From Liquorilactobacillus mali (GTDB lineage Bacteria; Bacillota; Bacilli; Lactobacillales; Lactobacillaceae), in assembly GCF_001437155.1 (NCBI RefSeq), contig NZ_JQAR01000009.1, forward strand, positions 1-64,000: a stretch of DNA of 64,000 bases. The letters are read 5' to 3'. The notes below the pieces were generated by a model that had not been told where the DNA came from, did no database searches, and saw only the letters and a program-made list of their open reading frames with translations. Positions within the stretch are counted from its first letter, which is position 1; the number at the start of each line of letters is the position of its first letter. The translations under genes were made by a program, and so were the position numbers. This document shows, piece after piece, positions 58,820 to 63,998 of this stretch.

Positions 58820-59965
58820 ATGAAGAAAAAGTATTTATATGAAGTTGATTTAATGAGGTGTATTTTCATTTTTGGGGTACTAGCAAATCATGTAACATCA
58901 TCATTTATTGCTAGCTTATCAACCGATTCAGTTCCACAGTTAGTTTTGTTAATGACACATTTATTGTTGCATTTCACAAGAATGGGATTCATGTTCGTTA
59001 CAGGGTTAGTACTATTTTTACAATATTATAAAAAAGATCAGGTAAATTATCTGGCCTTCTGGTACAAACGCTACAAGGGTGGTGGAGTGCCTTACTTATT
59101 TTGGAATGGATTTTTCTTAATATTTGTTGCTATTGCAGCAGGCGACACTTTGAATTTTCACAGTTGGGTAACAGATTGGTATTCGGCTTTGATTCATGGG
59201 GATCAATTCTATATGTACTACATTTTGGTGACATTTCAGCTTTATCTGATTTTTCCATTATTACTTAAATTGTTTAAGAAGTTGAATGGTTATCATCTAT
59301 TGATATTCTCAATCAGCGCGTTAATCCAATTATTTTTCTTAATCTGGACAAAATATATATATCCAGAGATGAATCATGATAACTGGCCATATTTACTGAA
59401 GTACTACGGCAACTTTGTCTTATCATACCAATTCTATTTTATTGCAGGTGGCTTTGTTTCAATTCATTATGATGAGGCCAAGGTATTCATCACAAAGTAC
59501 CGAAAAATCGTCTATACACTCACTGCCTTACTAGGATTAGGAACGTTTGTTCTGTTTTACATTAACTGGTATATTCTCAAGTTAGGCAAACATTATACAG
59601 AGCTAGTACATCAGCCTTACTTGATGATTTATGCTTCACTCATGATTTGTACTGTTTGGTGTCTTAGCCTTTCATATGCGAGTCACAGAACGCAACCACG
59701 ATGGGAGAAATTTGCAAGATTCGTTTCCTTATCTTCAAAGTTATCTTTTGGTGTCTATCTGACTCAAACTATTGGGCTGACACTTTTAGCGTATATCTTA
59801 TTGAATATTAAGGGGTACTTGAATGAATGGGTCTTATTCCTGCTATTACCAGTAGGATATTTAGTTGTTTTGGGGACTTCATGGCTAGTGTCATTCATTC
59901 TCTACAAAGTTCCTCCATTTGGAATATTGATTGGACGCCCACAAAAGCTTAGGAGGAGTAAATAA
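58820..59965 (+). CDS. Membrane acyltransferase, acyltransferase_3 family
   Basis: 381-residue polytopic protein with about ten membrane spans. N-terminal pattern YEVDLMRCIFIFGVLANH has the conserved R13 and H24 of acyltransferase_3 enzymes, which move acyl groups to sugars, wall polymers or small molecules at the membrane. No extracellular SGNH domain is fused. AGGGG site before ATG 58820. Overlaps the ligase gene by one base. Acceptor is unknown; the tight linkage to an acyl-adenylating ligase suggests that the ligase makes its donor. Confidence 0.85.
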   Translation: MKKKYLYEVDLMRCIFIFGVLANHVTSSFIASLSTDSVPQLVLLMTHLLLHFTRMGFMFVTGLVLFLQYYKKDQVNYLAFWYKRYKGGGVPYLFWNGFFLIFVAIAAGDTLNFHSWVTDWYSALIHGDQFYMYYILVTFQLYLIFPLLLKLFKKLNGYHLLIFSISALIQLFFLIWTKYIYPEMNHDNWPYLLKYYGNFVLSYQFYFIAGGFVSIHYDEAKVFITKYRKIVYTLTALLGLGTFVLFYINWYILKLGKHYTELVHQPYLMIYASLMICTVWCLSLSYASHRTQPRWEKFARFVSLSSKLSFGVYLTQTIGLTLLAYILLNIKGYLNEWVLFLLLPVGYLVVLGTSWLVSFILYKVPPFGILIGRPQKLRRSK

Positions 59966-61485
59966 TGACAAAATTAACTACAGAACTTGCTATGCATTTA
60001 AAAAAGAATGTTAATCGTGAATTTTTAAAAGATGAACGAATGAACAAATGGTTTACTGGAAAAGACGTAGAAGAAGACATAACAAAGCTTCAAAAAATTT
60101 TTTTAGACGCCCATATGGGCAGTGGGGACATTGCATTTATGTGTCTTGAAAATTCCGCTGCATATATTCCAATCAATCAGGCTTTGTGGCGGTTGGGTGT
60201 CACTGCACATCCCGTTTCTGAGAGTACCTCTGATGTAGAACTTGTCAAAGACTTTCGCGAGAATCATTATGCGGCAATTATTTTTAATGACAGCCGTGCC
60301 GAAGTTTTCAGTAATTTCACTGAATTAGATAAGCACACAGTTCAGTTGCATACATTTGAAGATTTGGTCATTCTAACAAGAAATGATTTGAACATAGGTG
60401 AGAAGGAAGCTAAGCCAAATGAGCAGTCATATGGTTGGATATTGAATACATCTGGAACCACCGGAAAGCCTAAGAAGGTTGGCCTGACTCATGAGATTAT
60501 GTTAAAGGCAGCGCACTATGACATGGGGAGCCATCGTTTAAGTGCAGATGATACTGTTTTGATTATAATGCCAATGTTTCACATTAATGCACAGGAATTA
60601 ATCGTTGTTTCTACACTTCTATCGGATGGGAGGTTAGTGATTGCACCTAAGTTCAGTGCAAGCCGTTTCTGGCAGCAGGTGATGAAGAATGATGTTACAT
60701 GGTCCTCAGTGGTTCCTACAATTGTTTCTATCTTATTAAAAAATGAGAAAGCCTTAGCTCAATTTGACCCAAATCACAAACTTCGCTTCGTTAGATGTGC
60801 TTCTGCGATGCTTCCGGTTAGCCGTCATAAGAAATTTGTAAAAAAGTTTGGTGTTCCGTTGCTTGAAGGGTATGGCATGACAGAATCTTGTAGTCAATGT
60901 ACTTTGAATCCATTAGATAATATAAAAATTGGTTCAGTCGGTAAACCATACCATACTGATGTAACAATTATAGATGGGGATGACTTTACTGATGCACCAG
61001 GAATTCATGGAGAGATTGCAATTCGCGGTGATCACGTAATTACGAGCTATCTTGATCCACATCCCGACTCCTTTAAAGATGGTTGGTTCTTAACAGGTGA
61101 TTTAGGCTACTTTGATGAAGAAGGTTATCTGTGGTTGGAAGGTCGTAGTAAAGATGTTATTAATCATGGTGGTGAAAAAGTCAGTCCATCGGTTGTCGAA
61201 GATGTTCTTGGAAACCTGGACTTCATTAAACAAGTTGCAGTCGTGGGATTGCCTGATGAACTATATGGCGAAATTGTAGCGGCTGCCGTAATTGATGATA
61301 CCAAAGATTCTGAGACTCTGGCAAAACACCGTCAACGAATTATTGATTATGCAGCAACACATCTTGCTAAGTATCGGAGACCAACTGAAATCTTCTTTTT
61401 AGATGAATTTCCATTAAATCCAACTCGCAAGATATTAAGGCCAAAATTGGCAGAGATACTACAAGAAAAGAGGACTGTGAAATAG
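59965..61485 (+). CDS. AMP-forming acyl ligase (ANL superfamily)
   Basis: 506-residue adenylate-forming enzyme that activates a carboxylic acid with ATP, probably to a CoA thioester. Visible motifs: A3 NTSGTTGKPKK (T162-K171 region), A5 YGMTES from Y303, A7 TGDLGYFDEEG with D379, A8 GRSKD with R394, and A10 lysine K489 in NPTRKILRPK, where the family usually has GK before the isoleucine. No carrier-protein gene adjoins. AGGAGG at the right distance. Substrate unknown; could be oxalate-, short-chain- or aromatic acid-like. Confidence 0.85.
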   Translation: MTKLTTELAMHLKKNVNREFLKDERMNKWFTGKDVEEDITKLQKIFLDAHMGSGDIAFMCLENSAAYIPINQALWRLGVTAHPVSESTSDVELVKDFRENHYAAIIFNDSRAEVFSNFTELDKHTVQLHTFEDLVILTRNDLNIGEKEAKPNEQSYGWILNTSGTTGKPKKVGLTHEIMLKAAHYDMGSHRLSADDTVLIIMPMFHINAQELIVVSTLLSDGRLVIAPKFSASRFWQQVMKNDVTWSSVVPTIVSILLKNEKALAQFDPNHKLRFVRCASAMLPVSRHKKFVKKFGVPLLEGYGMTESCSQCTLNPLDNIKIGSVGKPYHTDVTIIDGDDFTDAPGIHGEIAIRGDHVITSYLDPHPDSFKDGWFLTGDLGYFDEEGYLWLEGRSKDVINHGGEKVSPSVVEDVLGNLDFIKQVAVVGLPDELYGEIVAAAVIDDTKDSETLAKHRQRIIDYAATHLAKYRRPTEIFFLDEFPLNPTRKILRPKLAEILQEKRTVK

Positions 61486-61486
61486 T

Positions 61487-62458
61487 ATGAAGAATCTTAA
61501 AAAAAGTTTTATCGCAATTCTTTTATTATTTTGGTGTGGGATTGCTGTTTATGGCTGGCACCTGACAAGAGAAGATGCTGGAAGTTCCAGCTTAAAGAAT
61601 GTCGTACTTGGGTATCAAGCTGGAGATGAATTCTATATCTCTAAAATTAGAGGCCAGTTCGTTAAAAAGATGAAGGCGAAGGGATACAATGTTAAGTTCA
61701 AGGAATTCCAAAATGGTGCGGCAATGATGCAGGCACTTGCTTCAGGTAATGTCGACTACGCGCGTGTAGGAGATACGCCGCCCGTATCTGCCTTGGCATC
61801 GGGTACTAAATTAACTTATGTGGCAGCTGGTGGAACAAAAGCAAAAGGTAGTGGAATTCTGATTCACAAAAACTCTTCAATCAAAACATTGGCGGATTTA
61901 AAAGGTAAAAAAGTTGCATACACTAAGGGTACAAGTTCACAATACATGCTGCTGAGGGCTCTTAAAGTAGCCGGATTGAGCAATGATGATATAACATGGG
62001 TCAATTTAGATTCTGATGCTGCAAGTGTTGCATATTCTAAAGGAAAGGTTGATGCTTGGGCTAACTGGGATCCTAGTGTAGCACAAGTTGAAATAACCGA
62101 GAATTCAAAGCTGCTTGTTGATGGTACAACTACAAAGGCACTCAACCGAAGCTTCATTGTTTCACCAACAACATATGCAAGCAAAAACAAAACACTAAGC
62201 AAGCTAATTATTAAATATACTGAGCAAGATATGAAGTGGGCTAACAAGAATCATTCTAAATTGATCAAAAAAATGAGTGCAGATTTAAAACTTTCTAAGA
62301 AGGTGGTTCGTAGATCTGTTACCAGAAGAACGTTCTCAATGAAAGCAATGTCAAAGAGTGTCGTAAAAGAGGAACAGGAAATTGCTAATGTATTTTACGA
62401 CAATAACATTCTTACAAAGAAAATTGATGTTTCAAAACATGTTCAGTACCTTAAATAA
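61487..62458 (+). CDS. ABC transporter substrate-binding protein, SsuA/TauA family
   Basis: 323-residue extracytoplasmic binding protein. N-terminal hydrophobic segment (about 6-26), then a NMT1/SsuA-type bilobal fold with QALASGNVDYARVGDTPPV, LKGKKVAYTKGTSS and GKVDAWANWDPSVAQVE. The only cysteine in the leader (C17, in LFWCGIA) is not in a good lipobox, so it may be membrane-anchored by an uncleaved helix instead of lipid. Family members bind aliphatic sulfonates, taurine, nitrate or aromatic acids. Begins one base after the ligase stop. The lack of a desulfonating monooxygenase nearby argues against simple sulphur scavenging. Confidence 0.88.
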   Translation: MKNLKKSFIAILLLFWCGIAVYGWHLTREDAGSSSLKNVVLGYQAGDEFYISKIRGQFVKKMKAKGYNVKFKEFQNGAAMMQALASGNVDYARVGDTPPVSALASGTKLTYVAAGGTKAKGSGILIHKNSSIKTLADLKGKKVAYTKGTSSQYMLLRALKVAGLSNDDITWVNLDSDAASVAYSKGKVDAWANWDPSVAQVEITENSKLLVDGTTTKALNRSFIVSPTTYASKNKTLSKLIIKYTEQDMKWANKNHSKLIKKMSADLKLSKKVVRRSVTRRTFSMKAMSKSVVKEEQEIANVFYDNNILTKKIDVSKHVQYLK

Positions 62459-62476
62459 TTAATAAGGAGAAAGATT

Positions 62477-63307
62477 ATGGAAAATATTGAAACAAATGAA
62501 AATTATCATTTTTCGTTTAAGTTTAAAAATTCATTACCTTGGTTGATTCCTGTTTTCTTGATAGTTTTTTGGCAAGTTGCTTGCAATCTCTCGTGGGTCA
62601 ATGAGACCTTGTTACCATCTCCAATTGATGTTGTAACAAATGGTATTAAGCTTTTTAAGAAGGGTGAACTTCAAGAAAATATGAGTATTAGTCTTTATCG
62701 TGCAACTGCCGGTCTTCTGATTGGTGGTGGACTAGGGTTCATTCTAGGTTTTATAAATGGAGTTTCACGTAGGGCAAGATTATTGTTTGACAGCACTATT
62801 CAAATGTTGCGTAATATCCCACATTTAGCATTGATTCCCTTGATTATTTTATGGCTTGGAATTGGTGAATCTGCCAAAATATCATTGGTTGCATTAGGGT
62901 GTCTCTTCCCGATGTATATCAATACCTACCATGGAATTACATCAGTCGATCCTAAGCTAATTGAGATGGGAAAATCTTATGAATTGAGTAAAAAGGATCT
63001 GTTTATCAAGGTTATTTTTCCTGGAGCTCTTCCAACTATTTTGATGGGTGTTAGATATGCACTTGGTGTAATGTGGACGACCTTGATTGTTGCTGAAACA
63101 ATTTCTGCAAGTTCTGGTATAGGTTATATGTCAACGAACGCCGAACAGTTCATGGATATGAAGACGATTGTTTTATGTATTTTAATCTATGCCCTATTGG
63201 GAAAATTATCTGATTTTATCGCTAAAAACTTAGAAGACATCTTCTTAGAATGGCGTGCAATTGAAAGGAGGAATACAGATGCCTCAGAAACTTCTGGAGA
63301 TAAGTAA
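62477..63307 (+). CDS. ABC transporter permease, SsuC/TauC family
   Basis: 276-residue inner-membrane permease with about six spans and the binding-protein-dependent permease (EAA) motif near residues 170-195: EMGKSYELSKKDLFIKVIFP, followed by GALPTILMGVRYALG. AATAAGGAGAAAG before ATG 62477. Overlaps the ATPase gene by 29 bases. Confidence 0.92.
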   Translation: MENIETNENYHFSFKFKNSLPWLIPVFLIVFWQVACNLSWVNETLLPSPIDVVTNGIKLFKKGELQENMSISLYRATAGLLIGGGLGFILGFINGVSRRARLLFDSTIQMLRNIPHLALIPLIILWLGIGESAKISLVALGCLFPMYINTYHGITSVDPKLIEMGKSYELSKKDLFIKVIFPGALPTILMGVRYALGVMWTTLIVAETISASSGIGYMSTNAEQFMDMKTIVLCILIYALLGKLSDFIAKNLEDIFLEWRAIERRNTDASETSGDK

Positions 63308-63998
63308 AGTCGGTAAGTCGTACGGCAACAGTGTTATTTTGAGTGATGCTAACCTAGTCATTAATGAAGGTGAATTTATTGCACTAGTCGGAATGAGTGG
63401 TGGCGGTAAAAGTACGCTATTGCGAATGTTGGCCGGCTTAGAAGAGACATCTGCCGGTTCCATTATTCAAGATGGTAATAAGATTCATGGGTTAAACAAA
63501 GAAGCTCGTGTAATGTTCCAAGAAGATCGCTTGCTCCCATGGATGAATGTCATAGATAACGTTTTGCTGGATAAAAAGGGTAAACAAGCAGTTAGCGAGG
63601 CTACCGAACTACTGGAACAAGTAGAATTAGAGCAGTATGCTAAGCAATTTCCTTCTCAATTATCAGGTGGACAAAGACAGCGTGTTGCTTTGGCACGCGC
63701 GCTAATGTCACATCCACGCCTGCTTCTGTTGGATGAGCCATTAGGAGCACTTGATGCACTAACAAGGACTAAAATGCAGGACTTGATTAGAAAAGTTTGT
63801 CAGGATAAGGCGATTACAACTTTTTTGGTAACACATGATATTAATGAAGCTGTGAGAATGGCTGATCGTATCGCCATAATCAAGAATGGAACAATCTGGC
63901 GAATCGTTGATAATCCATATCGTGGCAAAGAAAGCCTTATCGATAAGGAAAAAGAAGTTGAAATCTCTGAAGAGATTCTTGCCGAAATTTTGGATTAA
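63279..63998 (+). CDS. ABC transporter ATP-binding protein, SsuB/TauB family
   Basis: 239-residue ATPase: Walker A GMSGGGKST (38-46), Q-loop MFQEDRLLPW typical of the nitrate/sulfonate class, signature LSGGQRQRV, Walker B LLLLDEPLGALD and H-loop THD. Start ATG 63279 has AAAGGAGG and lies inside the permease gene; the earlier TTG/ATG at 63255 is not needed. Complete: TAA at 63996-63998, two bases before the window ends, so genes may follow. Confidence 0.93.
   Translation: MPQKLLEISKVGKSYGNSVILSDANLVINEGEFIALVGMSGGGKSTLLRMLAGLEETSAGSIIQDGNKIHGLNKEARVMFQEDRLLPWMNVIDNVLLDKKGKQAVSEATELLEQVELEQYAKQFPSQLSGGQRQRVALARALMSHPRLLLLDEPLGALDALTRTKMQDLIRKVCQDKAITTFLVTHDINEAVRMADRIAIIKNGTIWRIVDNPYRGKESLIDKEKEVEISEEILAEILD

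Follow-up and report, generated by a model that had tools for sequence, protein, structure and literature searches.

An operon in Liquorilactobacillus mali and other Lactobacillales that joins an SsuABC-type importer to an acyl-CoA ligase and a membrane acyltransferase, with 3-sulfolactate as its proposed substrate

The DNA analyzed here (the window) is a 64,000-nucleotide stretch of Liquorilactobacillus mali, positions 1 to 64,000 of contig NZ_JQAR01000009.1 (NCBI RefSeq assembly GCF_001437155.1), and it carries an operon that combines a predicted SsuABC-type importer with an acyl-coenzyme A (CoA) ligase and a stand-alone membrane acyltransferase. Five genes were confirmed, all on the plus strand and spanning 58820-63998 (Table 1). 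Their products are referred to as AT3 (acyltransferase-3), LIG (ligase), SBP (substrate-binding protein), PERM (permease), and ATP (ATPase). In gene order, the first pair overlaps by 1 base, the next two pairs are separated by 1 and 18 bases, and the last pair overlaps by 29 bases, the same sizes that the initial annotation of this DNA had given in describing the genes as overlapping or nearly touching. Shine-Dalgarno-like sequences are present at LIG, PERM, and ATP; GGAGG precedes the ATG of the ATPase gene, for which an in-frame GTG at 63255 is an alternative start. The top NCBIfam match of the ATPase is the aliphatic sulfonate ATPase model NF008420, below its cut-off. Scanning for promoters and terminators gave sites no more frequent than in shuffled sequence. 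The contig (C78) extends to 76595 and was read to 76000, following the suggestion in the initial annotation that the sequence past 64000 be inspected. The genes next downstream of ATP are read from the other strand, which makes the ATPase gene the last of the operon and the operon complete at 63998.

Table 1. Genes of the operon, with positions in the window
Gene	Product	Length (aa)	Position	Strand	Matches and proposed role
AT3	Stand-alone membrane acyltransferase-3 protein	381	58820-59965	+	PF01757, E=3e-28; proposed sulfo-acyl transferase
LIG	AMP-forming acyl-CoA ligase	506	59965-61485	+	PF00501 and PF13193; proposed 3-sulfolactate--CoA ligase
SBP	Membrane-anchored SsuA-family substrate-binding protein	323	61487-62458	+	TIGR01728, above cut-off
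PERM	SsuC-like ABC permease	276	62477-63307	+	PF00528; NF008470 (SsuC), 310 bits, below cut-off of 347
ATP	SsuB-like ABC ATPase	239 (from ATG)	63279-63998	+	PF00005; NF008420, below cut-off

Among 301 Lactobacillaceae genomes, 75 carry LIG, and these belong to 18 of 40 genera; three further Lactobacillales families also carry the LIG gene set. Carriers include Levilactobacillus cerevisiae, Weissella confusa, and Secundilactobacillus odoratitofui, the ligase of the last lacking an adjoining importer. Open reading frames (ORFs) were mapped at approximately 80 loci, where AT3, LIG, and SBP occur together with PERM and ATP in variable order (AT3-LIG-SBP-PERM-ATP, PERM-ATP-AT3-LIG-SBP, and PERM-ATP-SBP-LIG-AT3 were all seen); LIG mostly adjoins AT3 and SBP, and AT3 is its most constant partner. 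In genus g4 (L043, L044, L045, L047, L048, L050, and L054), PERM, ATP, and a second ligase (~40% identical) form a separate unit divergent from AT3-LIG-SBP. Conservation across genera shows that the operon is not a chance assembly, and a gene order that shifts while membership persists is the pattern expected of a functional unit. This recurrence bears out the earlier assertion that the five genes act together. The initial annotation had proposed a look for the same five-gene order in other genomes, and there the membership recurs but the order is often rearranged; it had also named separation of the ligase and transporter families in relatives as evidence against coupling, and the two were mostly found together. 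Clustering of the neighboring genes gave no recurrent third enzyme besides the sulfoquinovose genes described below. Oleate hydratase, considered as a partner, is a neighbor in three genera, at one locus each and outside the operon, and was dismissed as coincidental. When the whole collection was scanned with the ligase alignment, most hits were ANL ligases from outside Lactobacillales that lack adjoining AT3 or SsuABC. Functional coupling of the importer, ligase, and acyltransferase is strongly supported.

SBP scored 196.9 bits against the SsuA-family model TIGR01728 (cut-off, 163.5) and 79.6 bits against the taurine-importer model TIGR01729 (cut-off, 304). Its predicted model has a predicted local distance difference test score (pLDDT) of 92.8, and the closest structure is Escherichia coli SsuA (2x26). 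In SsuA of X. citri, Gln36, Gly68, Gly86, Ser141, and Trp185 contact the sulfonate or form part of its pocket (PMC3839906). These align with SBP residues Q44, G77, G95, S150, and W194, and in 24 homologs all are invariant apart from S150, which is replaced by Ala in a few. Another residue, R93, is invariant in the family at a position that is not Arg in SsuA or TauA, and it is proposed to meet the carboxylate of the substrate. In TauA, Glu106 binds the amine of taurine (PMC6906117); by alignment, the equivalent position falls in a KGSG motif of SBP and is not Glu. SBP, PERM, and ATP are strongly suggested to import a sulfonate. Neither SsuD nor TauD is encoded in the operon, TauD is absent from the window genome, and the only luciferase-like protein of that genome belongs to TIGR03858 and not to SsuD. 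Use of taurine or an alkanesulfonate as a sulfur source was therefore rejected, and the refuting case named in the initial annotation, a binding protein of this specificity with a monooxygenase encoded elsewhere, was checked for and did not overturn the scheme. Elsewhere in the same genome, an arylsulfotransferase-like gene (PF05935) adjoins a second SsuABC-type importer (L003, contig C28). A further binding protein of the NMT1 family is found at L001 (contig C44), after a D-2-hydroxyacid dehydrogenase gene.

LIG retains the catalytic motifs TSGTTGKPK, YGMTE, and TGD and the invariant K489. By fold (predicted model, pLDDT 87.1) and by sequence, the closest solved structures are oxalyl-CoA synthetases (AtAAE3 and Pcs60), with an Arg shared at the position of LIG R277 in the alignment. 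H206, N208, and R277 are identical in all homologs compared, importer-linked or sulfoquinovose-linked. Oxalyl-CoA synthetases activate a small dianionic acid, but LIG is only ~30% identical to them, its A4 motif is FHINAQ where Pcs60 has FHVHGL, and activity on oxalate is not expected from the context. There is resemblance to the fatty-acid ligases of subfamily PRK06187 as well. Family and context suggest that LIG would activate the carboxylate of the imported sulfonate. The known sulfoacetate and 3-sulfopropionate CoA ligases (SqwKL, SauCD, and HpfYZ) likewise convert a short sulfo-carboxylic acid to its CoA ester or back; however, they are ADP-forming, catabolic, and uncoupled from an acyltransferase.

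The R13-X10-H24 motif in the first helix of AT3 is invariant in 18 homologs, and the equivalent residues of OafA (R14 and H25) are essential (PMC7448272). No AT3 relative of solved structure was returned by sequence search. Stand-alone AT3 proteins transfer succinyl groups, and acyl-CoA is the donor in the AT3 proteins that have been tested; ExoH, MdoC, and OpgC, which also lack an SGNH domain, act outside the cytoplasm, where they add an anionic acyl group (PMC9558356). In those systems, succinyl is donated from central metabolism, in contrast to the arrangement described here. On this family precedent, AT3 would transfer its group to an extracytoplasmic acceptor. We know of no stand-alone AT3 succinyltransferase with its own importer and ligase, nor of any transfer of a sulfonated acyl group by such a protein.

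Clustering of the locus neighbors revealed a recurrent aldehyde dehydrogenase and a recurrent isomerase, the latter matching the sulfoquinovose isomerase model NF048012 (E ~1e-124, below its curated cut-off). At L062, LIG, a YihQ-type sulfoquinovosidase, an aldehyde dehydrogenase, a GPH transporter, a transaldolase, DUF4867, the isomerase, and AT3 share one strand in this order, and at L178 and L179, LIG stands beside the isomerase, DUF4867, transaldolase, a transporter, and a dehydrogenase. Judged from sequence, the content of these three loci is the gene set of the transaldolase-dependent (sulfo-TAL) route of sulfoquinovose catabolism. The combination that marks sulfo-TAL (sulfoquinovosidase, SftI homolog, transaldolase, and aldehyde dehydrogenase) was found together at L203-L209 and at L062, with the SftI homolog below cut-off and the YihQ-type model above cut-off in L062 and L203. 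At L052 and L164, the isomerase, a class II aldolase, a phosphofructokinase-type kinase, and an aldehyde dehydrogenase lie directly beside PERM-ATP-AT3-LIG-SBP, in a predicted route that resembles the Embden-Meyerhof-Parnas-type pathway sulfo-EMP2. In genome G277, the dehydrogenase is beside LIG, and the isomerase and aldolase are on another contig. In the known pathways, the dehydrogenase oxidizes sulfolactaldehyde to 3-sulfolactate (PMC10599462, PMC8873060, PMC12890257), and both linked routes are expected to share sulfolactaldehyde and an aldehyde dehydrogenase that would yield sulfolactate. In a phylogenetic tree, the sulfoquinovose-linked LIG of L062 nests inside the importer-linked clade with strong support. 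As an observation in its own right, complete or near-complete sulfo-TAL clusters occur in several Lactobacillaceae genera (L203-L209, L062, L178, and L179), most with a YihQ-type sulfoquinovosidase. An order-wide search for sulfoquinovose isomerase found one genome only, already among those known. In genome G123 (L055:6798-8867), the binding protein is duplicated, with one copy broken into two ORFs, and the sulfoquinovose cluster is reductive, not oxidative.

Co-occurrence was counted over the same 301 genomes; the statistics ignore shared ancestry, which tells against the interpretation developed from them. The sulfoquinovose-isomerase homolog is present in 17 genomes, and LIG is present in all 17 (hypergeometric, 1.2e-11; p = 0.005 by genus), as is AT3. 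The control enzyme, L-rhamnose isomerase, is present in 55 genomes, only 21 of which have LIG. In 5 of the 17 genomes, from three genera, the isomerase is within 10 kb of LIG (simple binomial, 2e-7 by genome and 3e-4 by genus). Of the 58 LIG genomes that lack the isomerase, 56 have SBP, compared to 9 of the 17 isomerase genomes (Fisher, 5e-5). The absences among isomerase genomes are confined to genera g3, g16, and g21, and G057, a genome of g21 without the isomerase, retains the whole operon. Since SBP is often missing where the isomerase is present, cells that make the sulfonate internally seem able to do without the importer. This replacement would be expected if the importer and the sulfoquinovose pathway both supplied a single acid, and it is the strongest argument concerning the substrate because it depends least on family names. 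The view that the missing monooxygenase argues against desulfonation stands. Even so, the linkage to sulfoquinovose catabolism and the conserved sulfonate-contact residues make it very probable that the substrate is a sulfonate that is used intact.

In the best reading of these data, with a probability of roughly 0.6, 3-sulfolactate is imported, activated as a CoA ester, and passed by AT3 to an envelope acceptor. The operon would scavenge 3-sulfolactate shed by sulfoquinovose-degrading neighbors: the SsuABC-type importer would take it up, LIG would use ATP to turn its carboxylate into sulfolactyl-CoA, and AT3 would move the sulfolactyl group across the membrane onto a glycan, teichoic acid, or glycolipid. 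The effect would be a permanent negative surface charge, analogous to the succinyl added by ExoH, MdoC, and OpgC. In sulfoquinovose-degrading relatives, the aldehyde dehydrogenase would make the same acid internally, and the importer could be lost. The import, activation, and acylation scheme of the initial annotation thus survives, with its linked set conserved across genera and families. What the data show directly are the gene set and its conservation, the linkage and co-occurrence with sulfoquinovose genes, the pattern of importer replacement, and the conserved residues. 3-Sulfolactate as the exact substrate is drawn from the linked pathways, and we infer CoA-ester formation, the acceptor, and the purpose.

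Several observations weigh against this interpretation. The bit scores of the isomerase homologs (286-576) fall short of the curated cut-off (700), and the sulfoquinovose assignment draws on the cluster in its entirety, most of all on the YihQ-type sulfoquinovosidase. Models for succinate-semialdehyde dehydrogenase match the aldehyde dehydrogenases too, at scores below cut-off. The window genome (G000) has no sulfoquinovose isomerase and is linked to sulfoquinovose through relatives only, and its substrate assignment therefore rests on homology. In G014, LIG and AT3 occur although SBP and the isomerase are both missing, and in G123 the cluster carries a YihU-type reductase together with a TauE exporter in place of an aldehyde dehydrogenase, with LIG and AT3 kept. 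Some genomes have two ligases, and no acceptor gene co-localizes with the operon.

The same scheme could act on sulfoacetate, 3-sulfopropionate, sulfopyruvate, or cysteate instead of 3-sulfolactate, an alternative that is considerably less likely. The sulfonate shell of SBP and the oxalyl-CoA-synthetase-like pocket of LIG leave the chain length unfixed, the sulfoacetaldehyde dehydrogenase model SafD matches the aldehyde dehydrogenases (well below cut-off), and other bacteria form 3-sulfopropionate and sulfoacetate with CoA ligases. However, the linked transaldolase, or aldolase and kinase, give sulfolactaldehyde and hence sulfolactate, and a search (not exhaustive) found no transketolase or glycyl-radical enzyme among the identified cluster genes. 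The substrate is thus probably a carboxylated C2-C3 sulfonate, most likely 3-sulfolactate, used intact. The initial annotation had specified neither substrate nor product; the former is now narrowed to a carboxylated sulfonate.

It is distinctly improbable that LIG and the importer feed catabolism or sulfur assimilation, with the sulfo-acyl-CoA degraded in the cytoplasm and AT3 secondary. CoA-ester activation is a common first catabolic step and this importer family usually supplies sulfur, but AT3 accompanies LIG in every isomerase genome, mostly adjacent to it, no catabolic partner emerged from the neighbor clustering apart from the sulfoquinovose genes, and the desulfonating enzymes are absent from the window genome as described above. 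An even weaker case can be made for the imported sulfonate as acceptor, with LIG activating another acid and AT3 acylating taurine or a related sulfonate. The importer family does take up taurine and alkanesulfonates, and the resemblance of LIG to PRK06187 fatty-acid ligases would fit. Against this, AT3 proteins are thought to acylate acceptors at the outer side of the membrane, which would make importing the acceptor pointless; SBP has no equivalent, by alignment, of the Glu106 needed for taurine in TauA; and LIG stays with the sulfoquinovose genes where SBP is absent. Gallate or another phenolic acid, suggested by gallate-decarboxylase-like genes downstream, has the slightest chance of all and was rejected as substrate: an lpd-like cluster is within 9 kb in only three genera (L005, L052, and L071), is missing at the large majority of loci, and is not co-transcribed with the operon, and a phenolic acid fits neither the sulfonate-binding residues of SBP nor the sulfoquinovose linkage.

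Outside the window, a frameshift breaks the UbiD-family gallate-decarboxylase-like gene (L005:8577-10060; C78:66576-68059) into two ORFs that overlap. The gene is surrounded by UbiX-like, LpdD-like, and LysR genes, and a similar group is near the operon in L052 and L071.

The operon resembles SsuABC (E. coli SsuA 2x26; X. citri SsuA 3ksj and 3ksx) in its three-component importer, SBP fold, contact Gln/Gly/Gly/Ser, and pocket Trp, but no desulfonating monooxygenase is in the operon, the importer travels with a ligase and AT3, and SBP has an N-terminal membrane helix and the invariant Arg93 not found in SsuA or TauA. Relatives of the operon adjoin gene sets like those of sulfo-TAL and sulfo-EMP2 (Bacillus, Enterococcus gilvus, and Arthrobacter); the published pathways, however, excrete sulfolactate or 2,3-dihydroxypropane-1-sulfonate (DHPS), and no extension by a ligase and AT3 was found in the literature checked, where neither lactobacilli nor any acyltransferase is mentioned in connection with sulfoquinovose. 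In the Dlt system for D-alanylation of teichoic acid, a dedicated adenylating ligase also feeds a membrane acyltransferase, but Dlt relies on a carrier protein and an MBOAT protein, the charge it adds is positive, and it lacks an importer. A literature search found no sulfolactyl-CoA, sulfolactylation, or sulfolactate-CoA ligase; subscription journals were largely outside this search and novelty is provisional, as is the earlier claim, with which the search agrees, that the three-part combination is undescribed. The parts all come from known families; what appears new is their combination, along with the sulfonated acyl group proposed here.

These results link an orphan operon of about a quarter of the sampled Lactobacillaceae to a testable substrate, and they indicate sulfoquinovose catabolic clusters in lactobacilli, undescribed in the literature searched. 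We propose tentatively, at somewhat short of even odds, that Lactobacillales decorate an envelope polymer or lipid with sulfolactyl groups, scavenged or derived from plant sulfoquinovose, by acyl transfer and not by sulfotransferases. If this is true, sulfolactate, a product of the breakdown of an abundant plant sulfolipid, would be put to anabolic use by bacteria common in food and the gut, and envelope modifications, with their effects on charge, phage binding, and host contact, would come to include a strongly acidic group.

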